A DNA stretch of 64,000 nucleotides from Methanocalculus natronophilus (lineage in GTDB: Archaea; Halobacteriota; Methanomicrobia; Methanomicrobiales; Methanocorpusculaceae), in assembly GCF_038751955.1 (NCBI RefSeq), contig NZ_JBCEXH010000001.1, forward strand, positions 18,300 through 82,299, read 5' to 3'. The position numbers and the translations under genes are program-made. The first letter of the stretch is position 1; each line of letters begins with the position of its first letter. Positions 42,635-51,400 of the stretch are shown here, one piece after another. The notes under the pieces were generated by a model. That model was not told the origin of the DNA. It made no database searches and saw nothing but the letters and a program-made list of their open reading frames with translations.

Positions 42635-43687
42635 ATGTGTGGAATTATTAGTGTTGTTGACAGATCCAGGTCAGGAATGGATGGATCCTCAATAAAAAAC
42701 GCCCTTTCCCTGATGGATGAGCGGGGGAGCGGCGAAGGAGCAGGGTATGCGGCATATGGAGTGTACCCCGATTTTGCCGACTATTATGCCATTCATCTCT
42801 TCTTCAATAACCTTGTGGAGCCAAAAGGTGCAGTTGACGAGATCCTCCGGGCCTGGGGCAAAATAGAGCATGAAGAGGAGATCCCAACTGTCGAGCAGCC
42901 GGATCTCCGGAGAACACGCATACCCTGGCGATATTTCTTCAAGCCTGATCCAACCCTGATGCCCGGGAGCGACACTCCTGAAGAAGATATCATAATGATG
43001 CTTGTCATGAAGATCAACACCTCCATCCAGGGTGCCCTGGTCTTCTCATCAGGAAAGAATATCGGCGTGTTCAAAGCATCCGGGTGGCCGGAGGCAGTCG
43101 CGGATTTTTATCAGATTGACCAGTATGAAGGCTACATCTGGCTTGCCCACAACCGCTACCCGACAAACACACCGGGATGGTGGGGAGGTGCCCACCCCTT
43201 TAACCTCCTCGACTGGTCGGTTATTCATAACGGTGAAATCACGTCATATGGAACAAACAGGCGATATATTGAGAGTTTCGGGTACCGTTGCACAATGTTT
43301 ACCGACACCGAGGTCGTCGCCTATCTCTGTGATCTCCTCTCAAGGAGACATGGCCTGCCCCGTGAACTCATGGTGCGCGCATTCGCACCCCCATTCTGGG
43401 ACGAGATTGACAGGATGAAGAAGCCTGAGATGGAGCTGAACCATGCCATACGGCAGACATATGGATCTGCGCTCATGAACGGACCCTTTGCAATCGTTGT
43501 TGCAACCGCAGACGGCATTGTCGGGTTCACCGACCGGATCAAGCTGCGGCCACTCATTGCCGCTGAAGCAGGAGACAGGCTCTACATTGCAAGTGAGGAA
43601 GCAGCCATCCGGCGGATGGAGAGCAGCCTCGATCATGTCTGGATGCCACAAGCCGGAGAGCCTGTCATCGGGAGGGTACAGTCATGA
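42635..43687 (+). CDS. Glutamate synthase, class II glutamine amidotransferase subunit
   Basis: A 350-residue protein beginning MCGIISVVDR, in which Cys2 is the N-terminal nucleophile that releases ammonia from glutamine. Further signatures are LAHNRYPTN and HNGEITSYGTNRRYIE. In bacteria this is the first domain of the large GltB subunit; here, as in many archaea, it is a separate gene. Its stop overlaps the next ATG by 4 bp, so the subunits are translationally coupled. Expression is probably under nitrogen control through the divergent promoter. Confidence 0.9.
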   Translation: MCGIISVVDRSRSGMDGSSIKNALSLMDERGSGEGAGYAAYGVYPDFADYYAIHLFFNNLVEPKGAVDEILRAWGKIEHEEEIPTVEQPDLRRTRIPWRYFFKPDPTLMPGSDTPEEDIIMMLVMKINTSIQGALVFSSGKNIGVFKASGWPEAVADFYQIDQYEGYIWLAHNRYPTNTPGWWGGAHPFNLLDWSVIHNGEITSYGTNRRYIESFGYRCTMFTDTEVVAYLCDLLSRRHGLPRELMVRAFAPPFWDEIDRMKKPEMELNHAIRQTYGSALMNGPFAIVVATADGIVGFTDRIKLRPLIAAEAGDRLYIASEEAAIRRMESSLDHVWMPQAGEPVIGRVQS

Positions 43688-45195
43688 ACCCCGGATCCGT
43701 TCCAGCAAAATTCAAGGTCAGGATAGATGCCGATCAATGCATGCTCTGTGAACGCTGCGTGGAAAACTGCCCCTATGGGACATACAGGCGGGAAGGCGAG
43801 CATATCAGTGTTGATTCACGGAGGTGTGTTGCCTGCCACCGGTGCGTTGCCATGTGTCCGCGGGATTCGATCACAATCGAAGAAAAACCAGTCGATTACC
43901 GGAGCCACCCGCTCTGGACACGGGAATCACGGGAAGCCATCTACAACCAGGCACGGACAGGGAGAATCGTCCTTGCCGGGATGGGGAATGCAAGCGATCT
44001 CCCGATCATCTTTGACCGGCTTCTCCTGGATGCATGCCAGGTGACAAACCCAAGTATTGACCCGCTCCGTGAACCGATGGAACTTCGCACCTATATCGGA
44101 AAGAAACCCAGAAAGCTGGATCTCCGGAAGAAAAGAAATGGGGATATCGAACTGAAAACCAGGCTCCATCCGAACCTCAGACTGAATACACCGATTATGA
44201 TCGGGCATATGAGCTACGGTGCAATCAGCCTGAATGCCCAGCTCTCGATGGCACGGGCTGTTGCCAGTGAGGGTACATTCATGGGAACCGGAGAAGGGGG
44301 GCTGCATCCGGCTCTCAGGGAATTCCAGGATAATATGATCGTCCAGGTGGCATCCGGGCGGTTTGGTGTGGATATCGACTACCTGGAGCGGGGCGCGGCA
44401 ATCGAGATCAAGATTGGCCAGGGCGCAAAGCCAGGCATAGGCGGCCACCTGCCGGGGGAGAAGATCGATCCCGATATTTCACAGACCAGGATGATCCCCG
44501 AGCGAAGCGATGCAATCAGCCCGGCGCCGCATCATGACATCTACTCGATTGAAGACTTAAAACAGCTTGTCCACTCTTTAAAAGAGGCGACAGAATGGAA
44601 AAAACCAGTATTTGTCAAGATAGCGGCTGTACACAATGTCGCTGCCATTGCATCGGGGATTGCCAGATCATCTGCTGATGCAGTCGTTATTGACGGGTTC
44701 CGGGGAGGAACAGGTGCTGCACCGCGGGTATTCCGGGATCATGTCGGCATCCCCATTGAAGCAGCAATTGCAGCAGTCGATCAGAAGCTCCGATCCCAGG
44801 GTATCAGAAACGAGGTCTCCATCATCGCCTCCGGCGGCATCCGGGACGCAGCAGAAGTGACAAAGGCTATCGCACTCGGCGCAGATGCAATCTATATTGG
44901 TACTGCGGCATTAATTGCAATGGGATGCAGGGTCTGCGGAACCTGTTACCGGGGACTCTGCCCATGGGGTATTGCCACCCAGAACTCCTCGCTCACCAGG
45001 AGGCTGAACCCTGATGTCGAGTGGCAGCATGTGGCAAACCTGATTCGAGGATGGACCCTGGAGATATCCGAGCTGATGGGGGCTGCTGGGATTAACAGTA
45101 TCGAGAGCCTCCGCGGCAACCGTGACCGCCTGAGAGGATACCTCCTTGACGAGGCTATGATGAACATTCTGGACGTACAACCTGTTGGAGCATGA
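43684..45195 (+). CDS. Glutamate synthase, ferredoxin-FMN catalytic subunit
   Basis: A 503-residue protein. An N-terminal two-cluster ferredoxin domain (CMLCERCVENCPYG and CVACHRCVAMCPRD, about residues 19-64) is fused to the FMN-binding barrel that joins ammonia and 2-oxoglutarate to glutamate. GQGAKPGIGGHLPGEKI, VIDGFRGGTGAAPRV and ASGGIRDAAEV are barrel signatures, and CRVCGTCYRGLCPWGIATQ carries the 3Fe-4S cysteines. The fused ferredoxin supplies the electron path that the GltD subunit provides in bacteria. ATG 43684 overlaps the previous stop. Confidence 0.92.
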   Translation: MNPGSVPAKFKVRIDADQCMLCERCVENCPYGTYRREGEHISVDSRRCVACHRCVAMCPRDSITIEEKPVDYRSHPLWTRESREAIYNQARTGRIVLAGMGNASDLPIIFDRLLLDACQVTNPSIDPLREPMELRTYIGKKPRKLDLRKKRNGDIELKTRLHPNLRLNTPIMIGHMSYGAISLNAQLSMARAVASEGTFMGTGEGGLHPALREFQDNMIVQVASGRFGVDIDYLERGAAIEIKIGQGAKPGIGGHLPGEKIDPDISQTRMIPERSDAISPAPHHDIYSIEDLKQLVHSLKEATEWKKPVFVKIAAVHNVAAIASGIARSSADAVVIDGFRGGTGAAPRVFRDHVGIPIEAAIAAVDQKLRSQGIRNEVSIIASGGIRDAAEVTKAIALGADAIYIGTAALIAMGCRVCGTCYRGLCPWGIATQNSSLTRRLNPDVEWQHVANLIRGWTLEISELMGAAGINSIESLRGNRDRLRGYLLDEAMMNILDVQPVGA

Positions 45196-45198
45196 AGG

Positions 45199-45942
45199 AT
45201 GGAGAATGAACTGGTAATCAATGCAGAGGGGATGCATTACACACCGCTCAACAAGGCGATACGATCTGCTGTTGCCAAAGGAACAGAGAAGATCCGGATC
45301 GAGCATGTACTTGGGCAGCGTTTCATCGCTGACGGGTTGAAAGGCAGAGTGAAGATAACAGTTCACGGCACTCCCGGAGGAGATCTCGGGATGTTCATGA
45401 GCGGCCCTTCAATCGAGGTCTTTGGAAACTGTGACCATGCGCCCGGCAATACGATGGATGGTGGCGAGATCATCATCCACGGCAGTGCAGGGGACGCAAC
45501 CGCCCATTCCATGCGGGGAGGGCTTGTGATGGTCCGTGATGACATCGGGTACAGGGGCGGCATCCATATGAAGGAGTATGGAGACCACAGGCCTGTTCTG
45601 ATCATCGGAGGGAATGCCTGTGCCTTCCTCGGCGAGTATATGGCAGGCGGCCTCGTGCTCGTTCTTGGATCCGGAGAGAAACGGGTTCTGCCCAACCGGG
45701 GGATCGGATCCGGCATCCACGGCGGGCTGATCATTATCCGGGGAGACGTTCCTGACCAGACACTGGGAGTCGGGGCGAAGAAGAGCCGGGCAACCGAGGA
45801 GGAGAAGAGACTGATTGATCCATATATCAGACGATATGCGGCGGTTTATGGTCGTGATCCAAAACCTCTGCTTGATGATGAGTATACCATTATCACCCCC
45901 TCAAGCGGACGGCCGTTTGCAAATAAATATACCTGGGAGTGA
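45199..45942 (+). CDS. Glutamate synthase, GXGXG (alpha-like) domain subunit
   Basis: A 247-residue protein of the right-handed beta-helix GXGXG domain that forms the C-terminal, structural domain of GltB in bacteria. Repeated Gly motifs such as GTPGGDLGMFMSGPSIEV, HGSAGDATAHSMRGGLVMVRDD and GIGSGIHGGLIIIRGD are visible. It starts 4 bp after the previous stop. Together with its two upstream neighbours it reconstitutes a full large subunit in three pieces. Confidence 0.9.
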   Translation: MENELVINAEGMHYTPLNKAIRSAVAKGTEKIRIEHVLGQRFIADGLKGRVKITVHGTPGGDLGMFMSGPSIEVFGNCDHAPGNTMDGGEIIIHGSAGDATAHSMRGGLVMVRDDIGYRGGIHMKEYGDHRPVLIIGGNACAFLGEYMAGGLVLVLGSGEKRVLPNRGIGSGIHGGLIIIRGDVPDQTLGVGAKKSRATEEEKRLIDPYIRRYAAVYGRDPKPLLDDEYTIITPSSGRPFANKYTWE

Positions 45943-45948
45943 TGAAAC

Positions 45949-46974
45949 ATGGCAAACTCCAGTTACGAAGATCTGTTACGCGAAGTCTGGGAAACCGGCA
46001 GGTGCAGTGGGTGCGGAGCATGTGTTGCCGTCTGCCCTGCCGATGCGATCGTCTTCTGCAGTGAACAGAACACCTGCCCTGAGAACAGGCATTACTGCAA
46101 AGAGCTGACAGATCAGGTTCCCTGCGGCGCATGCTATGATTCATGCCCCCGGGTGGGCGATTTTCAGGGGAGAGGACTGCTTGGGGAATACCAGTCTATT
46201 GTATCTGCACGGGCAGGAATTGAGGTGCCACACCGTCAGAGCGGCGGGGCAGTCACGGCGATCCTTGCTGATGCACTTGATTCGGGGCTCATTGACTCTG
46301 TTGTGACAGTGACTGAGGACCGGTTCACGCTCAGGCCGAGGTCTGTCCTGATAACCTCATCAGGTGAACTGATCCGGCATGCCGGAAGCCGGTATGCCTG
46401 GTGGGTCCCGCTGCTTGCGTCACTCAAGAAAGCTGTTATCCAGAAAAAATGCAGGAAGATTGCAGTCATTGGCCTGCCCTGTGCAACCGAGGCAATAGCT
46501 GTAATGAAAGCAAGCGACAATGATCTTATCCGGCCGTTTGCAACCTCTATCAGGGTCGTATTCGGCCTTTTCTGTACCGAGAGCTTTGATTACGATCACC
46601 TCGTCAACACTATCCTCGATCGCCGGTATGGCATCAGAACACATCAGGTGGAGAAGCTGGATGTCAAAGGCGGACTTGTTGTCACCAGAGCAGGTGGTGA
46701 GACACTCACCGTGCCGCTGAAAGAACTTGACGAGGCTGTCCGTCCCGGGTGCCGGATCTGCACTGATCTGACTGCCCGGAGTGCGGATATCTCAGCTGGC
46801 GCCGTCGGGTCAGGTGATGGGTATACCACATTGATTATCAGGAGTGAGACAGGCGAGGCATTTGTCAGATCAGCTGTTGCCTCTGGTGCGCTCCTTGTTG
46901 AAGGAGAGATTGATCAAAGCGCCATAGAATCGCTTGCTGCAAAAAAGGCAGCACGAGGAATTCCAAAACGGTGA
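45949..46974 (+). CDS. FrhB-like F420-binding Fe-S flavoprotein of glutamate synthase
   Basis: A 341-residue member of the FrhB family, whose members oxidise reduced F420 with FAD and pass electrons on through Fe-S clusters. The N-terminus has a ferredoxin pattern, CSGCGACVAVCPADAI, then further cysteines in CPENRHYC and CGACYDSCP. The FrhB core follows: RQSGGAVTAILADAL, VIGLPCATEAI, FGLFCTESFDYDHL and PGCRICTDLTARSADISAGAVGS. It lies 6 bp after the glutamate synthase genes, and there is no gltD gene, so it is probably the electron-input subunit, making the enzyme F420-dependent. This is inferred from family and position. Confidence 0.88.
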   Translation: MANSSYEDLLREVWETGRCSGCGACVAVCPADAIVFCSEQNTCPENRHYCKELTDQVPCGACYDSCPRVGDFQGRGLLGEYQSIVSARAGIEVPHRQSGGAVTAILADALDSGLIDSVVTVTEDRFTLRPRSVLITSSGELIRHAGSRYAWWVPLLASLKKAVIQKKCRKIAVIGLPCATEAIAVMKASDNDLIRPFATSIRVVFGLFCTESFDYDHLVNTILDRRYGIRTHQVEKLDVKGGLVVTRAGGETLTVPLKELDEAVRPGCRICTDLTARSADISAGAVGSGDGYTTLIIRSETGEAFVRSAVASGALLVEGEIDQSAIESLAAKKAARGIPKR

Positions 46975-47420: not shown

Positions 47421-48329
47421 CTATTTCCTATTTTGCTCCAGAACAAGCACCTGCAGGGCATCTTCTGCATCGGTATGACCCGGCTCAAGCGCAAGCACCT
47501 GCTGAAATGATCTCACCGCCTCATTGAAGTGTCCGGATTCAGCAAGAGCTCTCCCCCGCTTATACCAGAGATCAAAGATAGCAGGGTCGATTGAGAGCGC
47601 CATATCATAGGCATGGACAGCCCCCGTATAGTCTTCATGTTCATGGAGGATCACGGCACGGCCAATCCAGGCATCCAGATCCTCAGGGTCAAGGGCGAGG
47701 GCATCGGCAAATGATTCAAGCGCCTCATCAAGCCGGCCGAGCGCCGCAAGTGACAGCCCCCGTGACGTCCATATCCCTGCATCCAGAGGATCTATAGCGA
47801 GGACACGATCATACGATCTCACAGCCTCTTCGTGCTTTCCCAGTGCACCACAGGTATCACCACGGTTGCCCCAGGTATCGGGATCATCAGGGTCAAGGGC
47901 AAGAGCATTGTCAAATGATGCAATTGCCTCAGTATACCGTCCAAGTTTGGAGAGGGCTATCCCATGATTATACCAGGTATCCGCATCATCGGGAAGTTTT
48001 CCTGGGAGAGAGGCAAAAGAGGAGTCAGAGTCTCCAGTCTCATCTGCACCTGCACCAGGGGTGTCCTGATCAGCGGAGCCGGACCTGGTGTTGCCTTCGG
48101 AATCATCGTTCTGCAAAATATCAAGAACCCGGTTAAATGAGTGAAGTGCATCAGTATATCTCCCAAGCCCGATAAGGGCAACACCCCTGTTGTTCCATGC
48201 AGTAGCATGTGTGGGATCCCTCTCAATAATGCGCTCAAAGGTCTCCACGGCTTCAGTGAAGAGAGAGTTTGCCAGCTGTACATCTCCGCATGCAAGCATT
48301 TCATCCATAGACCCGCTGTTCATATCCAC
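47421..48329 (-). CDS. TPR repeat protein (seven repeats)
   Basis: A 302-residue protein with two TPR units, an acidic Ser/Gly-rich insert (about residues 85-115, with DDSEGNTRSGSADQD) and five more TPR units (TWYNHGIALSKLGRYTEAIASFDNALALDPDD and similar). There is no signal peptide or other domain, so it is probably a cytosolic scaffold. GTG 48329 is used because GGAGGGG lies 7 bp before it; ATG 48323 is the alternative. It lies 176 bp downstream of the large TPR-TFB gene on the same strand and uses the same WYNRG/YDRAL-type repeat consensus. Confidence 0.82.
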   Translation of the reverse strand: MDMNSGSMDEMLACGDVQLANSLFTEAVETFERIIERDPTHATAWNNRGVALIGLGRYTDALHSFNRVLDILQNDDSEGNTRSGSADQDTPGAGADETGDSDSSFASLPGKLPDDADTWYNHGIALSKLGRYTEAIASFDNALALDPDDPDTWGNRGDTCGALGKHEEAVRSYDRVLAIDPLDAGIWTSRGLSLAALGRLDEALESFADALALDPEDLDAWIGRAVILHEHEDYTGAVHAYDMALSIDPAIFDLWYKRGRALAESGHFNEAVRSFQQVLALEPGHTDAEDALQVLVLEQNRK

Positions 48330-48505: not shown

Positions 48506-51400
48506 TCATTTTGGGAGATGTTTATACCATTTCCTGAGTGTGGAGACAGAGACACCGGCAGCTGCCGCAACCTCACGTTGTGAGTATGCCTGCCCGGACC
48601 GGTTGGCTGCTTTATAGAGAACAGCAGCAAGAAGGCCGTTTCTGCCTCTCCCGCTGCCTGGGCTCTCTTCTTCTGCCTTCTGAAGAATCAGTGCCGCCTC
48701 TTCAGAGGCCAGCTGATCCAGCTGTAGTTCATTGCAGCACTGTTCGAGGTCAGGATACAATTCAAGGAGACGGGCTTTGCCGGATGCCTGCTGTACAGAC
48801 GCTGTCAGGCTCAAAAGCCCGGCCTGGGAGAGCCGGGAGACACCAGCCACCATGGCATCTGAGCATGGAGTGCCGGCTTGCCTGCAGGCAAGAGAGACGG
48901 CTGTTGCTGCGAGGGCTGCCGGGGATACATCCAGGTAATCTCTGCTTCCCATGAGATCGCGGCAGACATCTAAACAGAGAGCACGAATATCTCCAGAAAG
49001 GCCAAGTGCAGACGATATCCGGCTGATCTCCATTTCGGGATGCAATGCACCAGGCTGCATTCCATCTGCCTTCCTCAGGATGCCGGATCGCTTCCAGATA
49101 TGAAAGAGAACCGGCTTCAGATCGTTTGTGGACCTGTTTGAGAGAGAATACCCGGAACTGCAGATCCCTCCTGCAATGACCGGGGATATAAACGTCTTTT
49201 TGGAAGGAGAGTATACATCTGTACCGGCTTCATTGCCAGGGGGTGCAGCAGAGTCTAAAGCGCCTTCACCCTGAGCAGCACCGTGCCAGTCAAAGCCATG
49301 CACAACAGACCCATTCCCACAATCTCCGGCTGCCAGAGAACGGGGGCGGATATTTCGCTCCGTTCCTTCCGGGAAACCGATGTCGTCCCCATGGCATGCA
49401 CTTTTTTCCCGTGCATTCATATATCCTGTCGCAGCAACAGCATCATCCGGATTGAAGGTGAGCGCATGCTCATACGAGATACGGGCATCATCATAGCATC
49501 CCATCTTTTCAAGGGCAACACCCCTGCCTGTCCAGACACTGCCAAGATCCGGATCATGCTCAAGCGCTTTATCATATGAGAGAACCGCTTCATCAAACCT
49601 GCCAAGGCCACCAAGTGCATTGCCGCGGTTGCACCATGCATGGGCATCACGAGGATTGAGAGCCAGCGCCCTGTCATACGAGGAGACGGCATGCTCAAAC
49701 CTGAGCAATTTTTCCAGTGCAACTCCACGGTTGCTCCAGGCAAGGGCATCACCCGGGCTGATCGCAAGGCAGCGATCATACGAGGCAAGTGCCTCCTTAA
49801 ACCTCCCAAGATGCCCAAGTGCGTTGCCACGGATATACCATGCCAGTGCATGCATTGGATCGACAAAAACAGCCCTGTCATACGACTCTATTGCTTGTGT
49901 ATGCCGCCCGATCTTCTCAAGCGCCACACCCCTCCCAATCCAGGCATTGGCGTTCTCTGGATCTATCGCAAGCGCCTTGTCACAGGAGGCAACAGCATCT
50001 GCATACCGCCCGAGTATCCCAAGCGCATTGCCGCGGTTGCTCCAGGCAGGCGCATTGACAGGATCCAGCTCAAGTGCTTTTTCATATGAAAAGAGCGCAT
50101 CGTCCAGCTGCCCGAGGCCAAGATATGCATTGCCGCGGTTTGTCCATGCAGTGACATAATCAGGATGCAGGGCAAGGGCCCTGTCATACGAGGCAGCTGC
50201 ATCCCCGTACATGCCCAGGTTTGAGAGGGCATTCCCACGGTTATACCAGGCAGATGCATTTTCAGAGTCGATGCCAAGCGCATGATCAAATGAGTGAATG
50301 GCTTCGGCATACCTGCCCAGTTCAACAAGGGCAACACCCTGTCCGGTCCAGGCAAGGGCATCATCAGGATTGATTGCAAGTGCACGATCATAGGAGACCA
50401 GCGCCTCGGTATAGTTTCCGAGGGCTCCAAGTGCCACCCCACGGTTATTCCAGGCGACGGGATCATCCTGATTCAGGGCAAGGGCCCTGTCATACGACTC
50501 AACAGCTTTGGTAAAGGATCCGGTTCTGAGCAGGGCGTTGCCCCGCCCTGTCCAGGCATAGGCATGTCCTGGATCAAGTGAGAGCGCCTGGTCATAGGAG
50601 GCAAGCGCATCTGCATACCGTGAGAGGCTCCTGAGCGTATTTCCCCGGTTATACCAGACCTGGGCACGCGTGCGGCTGATAGCGAGTGCGCGATCATAGG
50701 CGGCAAGTGCATCTGCATGCCTGCCGATATATGCGAGCGCATTCCCACGATTATACCAGGCATGGGCGTTTTTGCGGTCGATTGAAAGGGCACGATCACA
50801 GGATGCGATCGCATCGGTATATCTCCCAAGCCCGATAAGCGCATTCCCACGGGCATTCCAGGCAGCCGCATCATCCGGATCAAGTTCCAGGGCTTTATCA
50901 AAGGATACAAGGGCGTCTCCCGGGCGGCTGAGTTCAGATAGAGCATTCCCACGGCCAATCCAGGCAGCCGCATCTGTTGGATCAAGAGAGAGGGCCTTAT
51001 CATATGATGCCAGTGAATCAACATACCTGCCAAGGTTGGCAAGCTCTGCAGCCCGGTTCAGCCAGGCACACGAATCTTCAGGATCGCTTGCAATGGCACG
51101 ATCATAGGAGTTCAGCGCCTCGCTGTAGTTTCCAAGTTCATAGAGAGCATTCCCACGGCCAATCCAGGCAAGAGAGTCGTGGGGGTTCATCGTGAGTGCA
51201 CGATCATATGATGCTATGGCATCATCGTTTTGCCCAAGCCCGGCAAGTGCTATACCACGACAGGTCCAGGCAACTGAATCAGTTGGGTCAGTAGAGAGTA
51301 CACTATCATATGTCAGAACCGCATCAAGGTAGGAACCCTGCTTGATCAGGTCATATCCTCTGCTGATTTTGCTGATTGGAATGCGCCTGCCAGTACCCAT
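48506..51400 (-). CDS. TPR array fused to TFB (TFIIB)-like cyclin repeats
   Basis: A 964-residue protein. Residues 16-661 are 19 uninterrupted TPR units of exactly 34 residues (consensus NALxxLGRYxDALASYDRALxxDPxxAxAWxxRG). After a linker (662-785) comes a region that aligns by eye with archaeal TFB. Repeat 1 (about 787-872) has ISRISSALGL, a helix ending SLACRQAGTP and SRLSQAGLLSL. Repeat 2 (about 883-963) has GLLAAVLYKAANRSGQ and the helix-turn-helix SQREVAAAAGVSVSTLRKWY, close to TFB's TQREVAEVARVTEVTVRNRY. There is no zinc ribbon or B-finger. ATG 51400 (MGTGRRIP) is chosen; an upstream extension to 51628 adds 76 non-repeat residues. A regulatory role is inferred. Confidence 0.82.
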   Translation of the reverse strand: MGTGRRIPISKISRGYDLIKQGSYLDAVLTYDSVLSTDPTDSVAWTCRGIALAGLGQNDDAIASYDRALTMNPHDSLAWIGRGNALYELGNYSEALNSYDRAIASDPEDSCAWLNRAAELANLGRYVDSLASYDKALSLDPTDAAAWIGRGNALSELSRPGDALVSFDKALELDPDDAAAWNARGNALIGLGRYTDAIASCDRALSIDRKNAHAWYNRGNALAYIGRHADALAAYDRALAISRTRAQVWYNRGNTLRSLSRYADALASYDQALSLDPGHAYAWTGRGNALLRTGSFTKAVESYDRALALNQDDPVAWNNRGVALGALGNYTEALVSYDRALAINPDDALAWTGQGVALVELGRYAEAIHSFDHALGIDSENASAWYNRGNALSNLGMYGDAAASYDRALALHPDYVTAWTNRGNAYLGLGQLDDALFSYEKALELDPVNAPAWSNRGNALGILGRYADAVASCDKALAIDPENANAWIGRGVALEKIGRHTQAIESYDRAVFVDPMHALAWYIRGNALGHLGRFKEALASYDRCLAISPGDALAWSNRGVALEKLLRFEHAVSSYDRALALNPRDAHAWCNRGNALGGLGRFDEAVLSYDKALEHDPDLGSVWTGRGVALEKMGCYDDARISYEHALTFNPDDAVAATGYMNAREKSACHGDDIGFPEGTERNIRPRSLAAGDCGNGSVVHGFDWHGAAQGEGALDSAAPPGNEAGTDVYSPSKKTFISPVIAGGICSSGYSLSNRSTNDLKPVLFHIWKRSGILRKADGMQPGALHPEMEISRISSALGLSGDIRALCLDVCRDLMGSRDYLDVSPAALAATAVSLACRQAGTPCSDAMVAGVSRLSQAGLLSLTASVQQASGKARLLELYPDLEQCCNELQLDQLASEEAALILQKAEEESPGSGRGRNGLLAAVLYKAANRSGQAYSQREVAAAAGVSVSTLRKWYKHLPK

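Follow-up and report, generated by a model that had tools for sequence, protein, structure and literature searches.

A gene in a 64,000-nucleotide stretch of Methanocalculus natronophilus DNA (hereafter the window) encodes a long TPR array fused to a C-terminal part that, on database matches and predicted structure, is a TFB-type fold homologous to the archaeal TFB core. Judged from its sequence, the fusion is a TFB-derived protein that lacks the zinc ribbon and B-reader by which an initiation factor is recognised. We see an even chance that the captured TFB core has become a TPR-controlled DNA-binding regulator or scaffold, recruiting neither TBP nor polymerase. Such a role is more likely than that of an alternative initiation factor.

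The gene lies on the reverse strand of the window and its features are listed in Table 1. From the ATG at 51400 there are 964 codons and a stop. The reading frame stays open 5' of this ATG, up to 51628. We place the start codon at 51400 because the orthologues can be aligned from about residue 5 (RRIPI..K). The candidate promoter element, ATATATAT, is one of two such sites in the window, where 0.5 are expected. An assembly or frame artefact was rejected, since the architecture is identical in four genomes.

Table 1. Features of the fusion gene and its neighbour. Positions are those of the window; residues are those of the window protein.
Feature	Position	Strand	Evidence
TPR-TFB fusion CDS, 964 aa	48506..51400	-	translation, orthologue alignment
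ATATATAT, possible TATA box, ~75 nt 5' of start codon	51476..51483	-	weak
19 TPR units x 34 residues (residues 11-656), capping helix to 672	49433..51370	-	Pfam, motif spacing, AlphaFold
Disordered linker (residues 671-785)	49046..49390	-	pLDDT below 50 (AlphaFold)
B-linker helix remnant position (residues 762-783)	49052..49117	-	clear in three orthologues, faint in window protein
Cyclin repeat 1 (residues 786-876)	48773..49045	-	NCBIfam TFB model, AlphaFold, Foldseek, alignment
Last helix of repeat 1 (residues 858-876), = KEIGRTYR / K188-R193 beside TBP in TFB/TFIIB; stripped in four orthologues	48773..48829	-	alignment, conservation count, PMC6004067
Cyclin repeat 2 (residues 880-964)	48509..48763	-	PF00382, PDB matches, AlphaFold
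HTH of repeat 2 (residues 938-962); R956 = human TFIIB R286 kept, S953 = V283 changed	48515..48589	-	alignment, conservation count
Glutamate-synthase operon (GATase, Glu_synthase, GXGXG, FrhB-like), convergent neighbour of fusion gene	42635..46974	+	same arrangement in four fusion genomes

The TPR array is strikingly regular. W-xx-R-G motifs stand at residues 45, 79 and onwards to 623, and all 17 consecutive spacings are exactly 34 residues. The last unit comprises residues 623-656 and a degenerate first unit residues 11-44, which gives the total of 19 that a preliminary description of this DNA had claimed. Pfam TPR_1 matched 18 stretches (E=1.6e-176); the degenerate unit 1 failed. In the AlphaFold model the array consists of regular helix pairs with pLDDT mostly >90, lower in the first repeats, and helix A of unit 1 is not seen. 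Taken together, Pfam, motif spacing and the model give tandem 34-residue helix pairs wound into a superhelix, which is what defines a TPR array. The proposal of a large protein-binding arm on a TFB-derived core is supported.

Evidence for the TFB origin of the C-terminal part came from several searches. PF00382 matched residues 885-962 (E=8e-15). The NCBIfam TFB model spans both repeats (model positions 130-302 of 312), with a score well under the curated cut-off. PDB entries 1d3u and 1ais, and human TFIIB, matched with E-values of 2.5e-8 to 1.3e-7. The two TFB cyclin repeats described earlier were confirmed; repeat 1 contains SLACRQAGTP and repeat 2 contains SQREVAAAAGVSVSTLRKWY. For the C-terminal part alone, AlphaFold predicted two five-helix bundles from an alignment that held the four orthologues only and no TFB. 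Compared with the PDB by Foldseek, this model returned human TFIIB, Pyrococcus woesei TFB, yeast TFIIB and Brf2, in that order, followed at weaker scores by cyclins C, T and K. A structure prediction and a TFB match had been named as the checks on this part, and neither refuted the assignment. Over the whole length, TM-scores were 0.4-0.5 and the rmsd was high; hence, the mutual placement of the two bundles is unlike that in solved complexes and is untrustworthy. The sequence searches point to TFB independently of this fold comparison. A chance match to TFB was rejected on the E-values, the four orthologues and the fold prediction.

The polymerase-recruiting parts are missing, as had been claimed. 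The translation has no CxxC pair N-terminal to the repeats, so that a zinc ribbon is absent, and the TFB profile was matched only from position 130. The B-reader is also absent from the fusion proteins. What persists is a partial B-linker-like helix: ahead of repeat 1, three orthologues carry LYSLRQHRRRN (compare LYRLRKWQRRI in the TFB B-linker). The TFB-derived segment thus starts within tfb, 5' of the cyclin repeats. In three orthologues the start of repeat 2 (residues 884-895, e.g. DLDRISSALKI) is closer to the start of TFB repeat 1 (ELDRMASALGL) than to the start of TFB repeat 2, as though a single helix had been converted.

Orthologues were found in three other genomes of the genus: G003 (Methanocorpusculaceae archaeon UBA456), G006 and G007. 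Their open frames are 915-971 aa long, their overall identity to the window protein is 53-55%, and the 19-unit array is free of insertions and deletions in all four proteins. In a tree with 43 TFBs the four fusion cyclin domains group together with support 100/99, and their branches are long. The fusions are a family of single origin; the length of their branches prevents placement of the donor TFB. Two genomes of the same genus that are 99% complete, G001 and G002, have no fusion gene. In G004 and G005 there was no second TFB match, and the contigs end at the fusion locus, so that its presence or absence cannot be read there. Besides the fusion, the window genome (2.0 Mb, 143 contigs) encodes a single normal TFB (a 347-aa open frame). 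The genus, g1, has two or three TBP genes as against a single normal TFB.

No further TPR-TFB fusion occurred among the matches listed from 232 order-level and 147 phylum-level genomes; the distribution rests on these matches, and a weaker fusion elsewhere may be missed. A scan of genome contigs with the window protein matched only G003. Among viral contigs and phages no relative was found, and the five plasmid matches listed were ordinary haloarchaeal TFBs only. TPR arrays are very common in these genomes, which makes a sequence search for TPR neighbours uninformative. Several candidates were rejected. Two long frames from the phylum (815 and 857 aa) are ordinary TFBs with intein-like inserts; such inserts in TFB genes occur in two further families of this phylum (L092, L093). 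Order genomes with two or three matches contain ordinary TFBs of ~300-360 aa or contig fragments. Separately, several genomes of the genus g34 in this order (e.g. G166, G175 and G192) carry two full-length TFBs.

The gene neighbourhood is partly conserved. In all four fusion genomes glutamine synthetase adjoins the glutamate-synthase operon, as does an ammonium transporter where the stretch reaches, and the Glu_synthase gene carries a ferredoxin domain. G007 has a DDE transposase gene between the operon and the fusion gene. The other flank is variable: the V-type ATPase operon in the window, a 458-aa gene (by eye, a CCA-adding enzyme) in G003 and G006, and a PAS-SpoIIE gene in G007. The operon is also present without the fusion in G001 and G002, where five other genes separate it from the 458-aa gene. 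A tie to nitrogen metabolism is consequently a lead only. Two observations on this locus may be added. Directly 3' of the fusion gene, at 47421-48329 on the reverse strand of the window, another TPR gene encodes 302 aa with at least 6 units and an acidic insert; it is missing from this spot in the other three fusion genomes. In G001 (C2:138530-139871) and G002 (C15:19419-20768) a TBP paralogue gene sits directly 3' of atpD, where the window has the fusion gene instead.

We scored positions with 93% identity or more among 43 TFBs as TFB-invariant and counted how many of these cells the four fusions keep. In repeat 1 the proportions are 75% for helix 1, 37% for helices 2-4 and 11% for the last helix; in repeat 2 they are 41% for helices 1-3 and 65% for the HTH. 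The last helix of repeat 1 differs from the rest (Fisher, p=0.004); the HTH does so with p=0.05 only. In that helix 6 of 56 cells survive across the orthologues, and the equivalent of K189-L204 (TFB KEIGRTYRFI) is gone in all four. Human TFIIB keeps 6 of the 14 positions of this helix, including K189-E-I-G-R193. Overall identity to the organism's TFB in the compared region is 48% for human TFIIB and 34-43% for the fusions.

Single TBP contacts are kept unevenly. Substitution R169E weakens the binding of TFIIB to TBP, and R169E/K188E does so more strongly (PMC6004067). Two conserved Glu of TBP meet one Arg and one Thr of TFIIB/TFB (PMC7221094); by our own assignment, the latter two are R169 and T176. 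In the order window, G007, G003, G006, the residues at R169 are R,R,R,Q, those at K188 are Q,R,R,K and those at T176 are S,E,T,T. TFB-like TBP binding by the fusions is unlikely, because single contacts partly survive and the helix around them does not. Some binding could persist, since R169 is kept in three of four; this fits residual TBP contact and counts against a TBP-independent reading. On such grounds the fusion could be a decoy or alternative initiation factor that holds TBP-TATA in place of TFB and so blocks or redirects initiation. R169 in three proteins (a TBP contact in TFIIB, PMC6004067, and by our assignment the Arg of PMC7221094), a basic residue at K188 in three, and T176 in two with Ser in the window protein would suit this role, and the two or three TBPs of the genus offer possible partners. 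Conversely, the KEIGRTYR helix is lost and V283 changed in all four, and the charge of the core is lost. A divergent third TBP is confined to G000, G001, G002 and G005, and co-occurrence of the fusion with an extra TBP was not seen in the genomes of the genus. We regard this role as improbable. The earlier suggestion that the protein occupies promoters or TBP therefore stands in part: its regulator component is favoured, and occupancy of TBP-TATA fits poorly with the stripped helix, V283 and charge.

The HTH is a different matter. The equivalents of Q271, E273, V274, A275, A278, G279, V280, T284, R286 and Y289 are invariant in the four fusions. V283 and R286 of TFIIB are BRE-reading residues. 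R286 is kept in all four, V283 is replaced by A or S, and E282 by V or I. With R286 retained, these shared changes look like an altered specificity. Net charge of the core is +7 in TFB and 0 to -3 in the fusions. In every fusion the C-terminal 30 residues form a basic stretch with a charge of +3 to +6; the comparable stretch of the organism's TFB has a charge of 0. Retention of the HTH, R286 and the basic C-terminus count for DNA binding. The neutral-to-negative core counts against it, and the HTH may have been retained for structural reasons, given that its helices also close the cyclin fold.

Cyclin folds frequently bind proteins. The cyclin pair might hence be a protein-binding module only, with the fusion joining its TPR client to another protein and making no contact with DNA. 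The weaker fold matches to cyclins C, T and K, the lost basic charge and the fast divergence of repeat 1 point this way; the HTH, among the best-kept stretches, its invariant R286 and the basic C-terminus do not. We consider such a protein-only scaffold rather unlikely.

Selection was compared along the protein. For G003 and G006, Nei-Gojobori omega was 0.115 for the array and 0.57 for the linker; repeats 1 and 2 gave 0.45 and 0.36, respectively. These ratios show purifying selection on both the TPR and cyclin parts, strong on the array and weaker on the cyclin part. Between G007 and G003 the array is 82% identical and repeat 1 39%. Depending on which two proteins are compared, 11 to 19 of the 19 TPR units match their positional partner best, which marks the array as an old, ordered structure without ongoing homogenisation. 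Fast evolution of repeat 1 fits a decaying domain and counts against DNA binding. At the extreme, only the array would do work, and the fused fragment of TFB would be an inert, decaying relic. Repeat 1 and the linker do evolve far faster than the array, and charge and TBP interface are lost. Against decay, omega is 0.36-0.45 in this closest pair, the frame is open in four species, the cyclin fold is still predicted and the HTH is well kept. Of the readings considered, an inert relic seems to us the least probable.

Returning to a DNA-binding regulator or scaffold, we tentatively propose a more specific version: that, in one genus, a basal TFB core captured by a 19-repeat TPR array became a partner-responsive, TBP-independent, specific DNA-binding regulator. 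On the broader reading, to which we give an even chance, tfb sequence from the B-linker helix to the 3' end would have been joined to a TPR array. The superhelix would bind a conserved protein or peptide partner, and the HTH of repeat 2 would bind DNA without TBP, with a specificity other than the BRE. Partner binding might control the DNA-bound fusion, or the fusion might deliver its partner. Either way, the protein's role would be that of a local regulator or scaffold rather than that of an initiation factor.

Archaeal TFB paralogues are mostly discussed as initiation factors with altered promoter choice. If our reading is true, a TFB core without polymerase-recruiting parts, joined to a strictly conserved protein-binding rod, represents a second path from basal factor to regulator or adaptor. 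The preliminary description knew of no TFB with this architecture, and likewise no TPR-TFB protein was found in text searches of the open-access literature. Four orthologues and two close relatives without the gene make the question directly testable.

Among the closest known counterparts is the core of archaeal TFB and eukaryotic TFIIB. The fusion shares its two five-helix cyclin repeats and C-terminal HTH, a significant sequence match over both repeats and, in the orthologues, a trace of the B-linker. It differs in having no zinc ribbon, B-reader or C-terminal tail, in the lost TBP-side helix of repeat 1, in the change at V283 and in the 19 TPRs ahead of the core. Bacterial TPR-HTH regulators (the RRNPP family and MalT) also couple a TPR superhelix to an HTH and respond to peptide or sugar ligands. 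Their HTH belongs to another family, and we do not claim a common origin. Like the fusion, Sulfolobus TFB3 is a divergent paralogue of TFB and is not expected to take over its role (PMC7289017); it activates in trans with canonical TFB. By description, TFB3 is unlike the fusion in being an activator that works with TFB and for which no TPR array is described. Finally, the TPR array of TFIIIC tau131/TFC4 binds Brf1 and Bdp1 (PMC4490372). Here too a TPR array is functionally tied to a TFIIB-like factor, which provides a precedent for TPR arrays that serve such factors, although in that system the proteins are separate and the array recruits a complete TFIIB-like factor.
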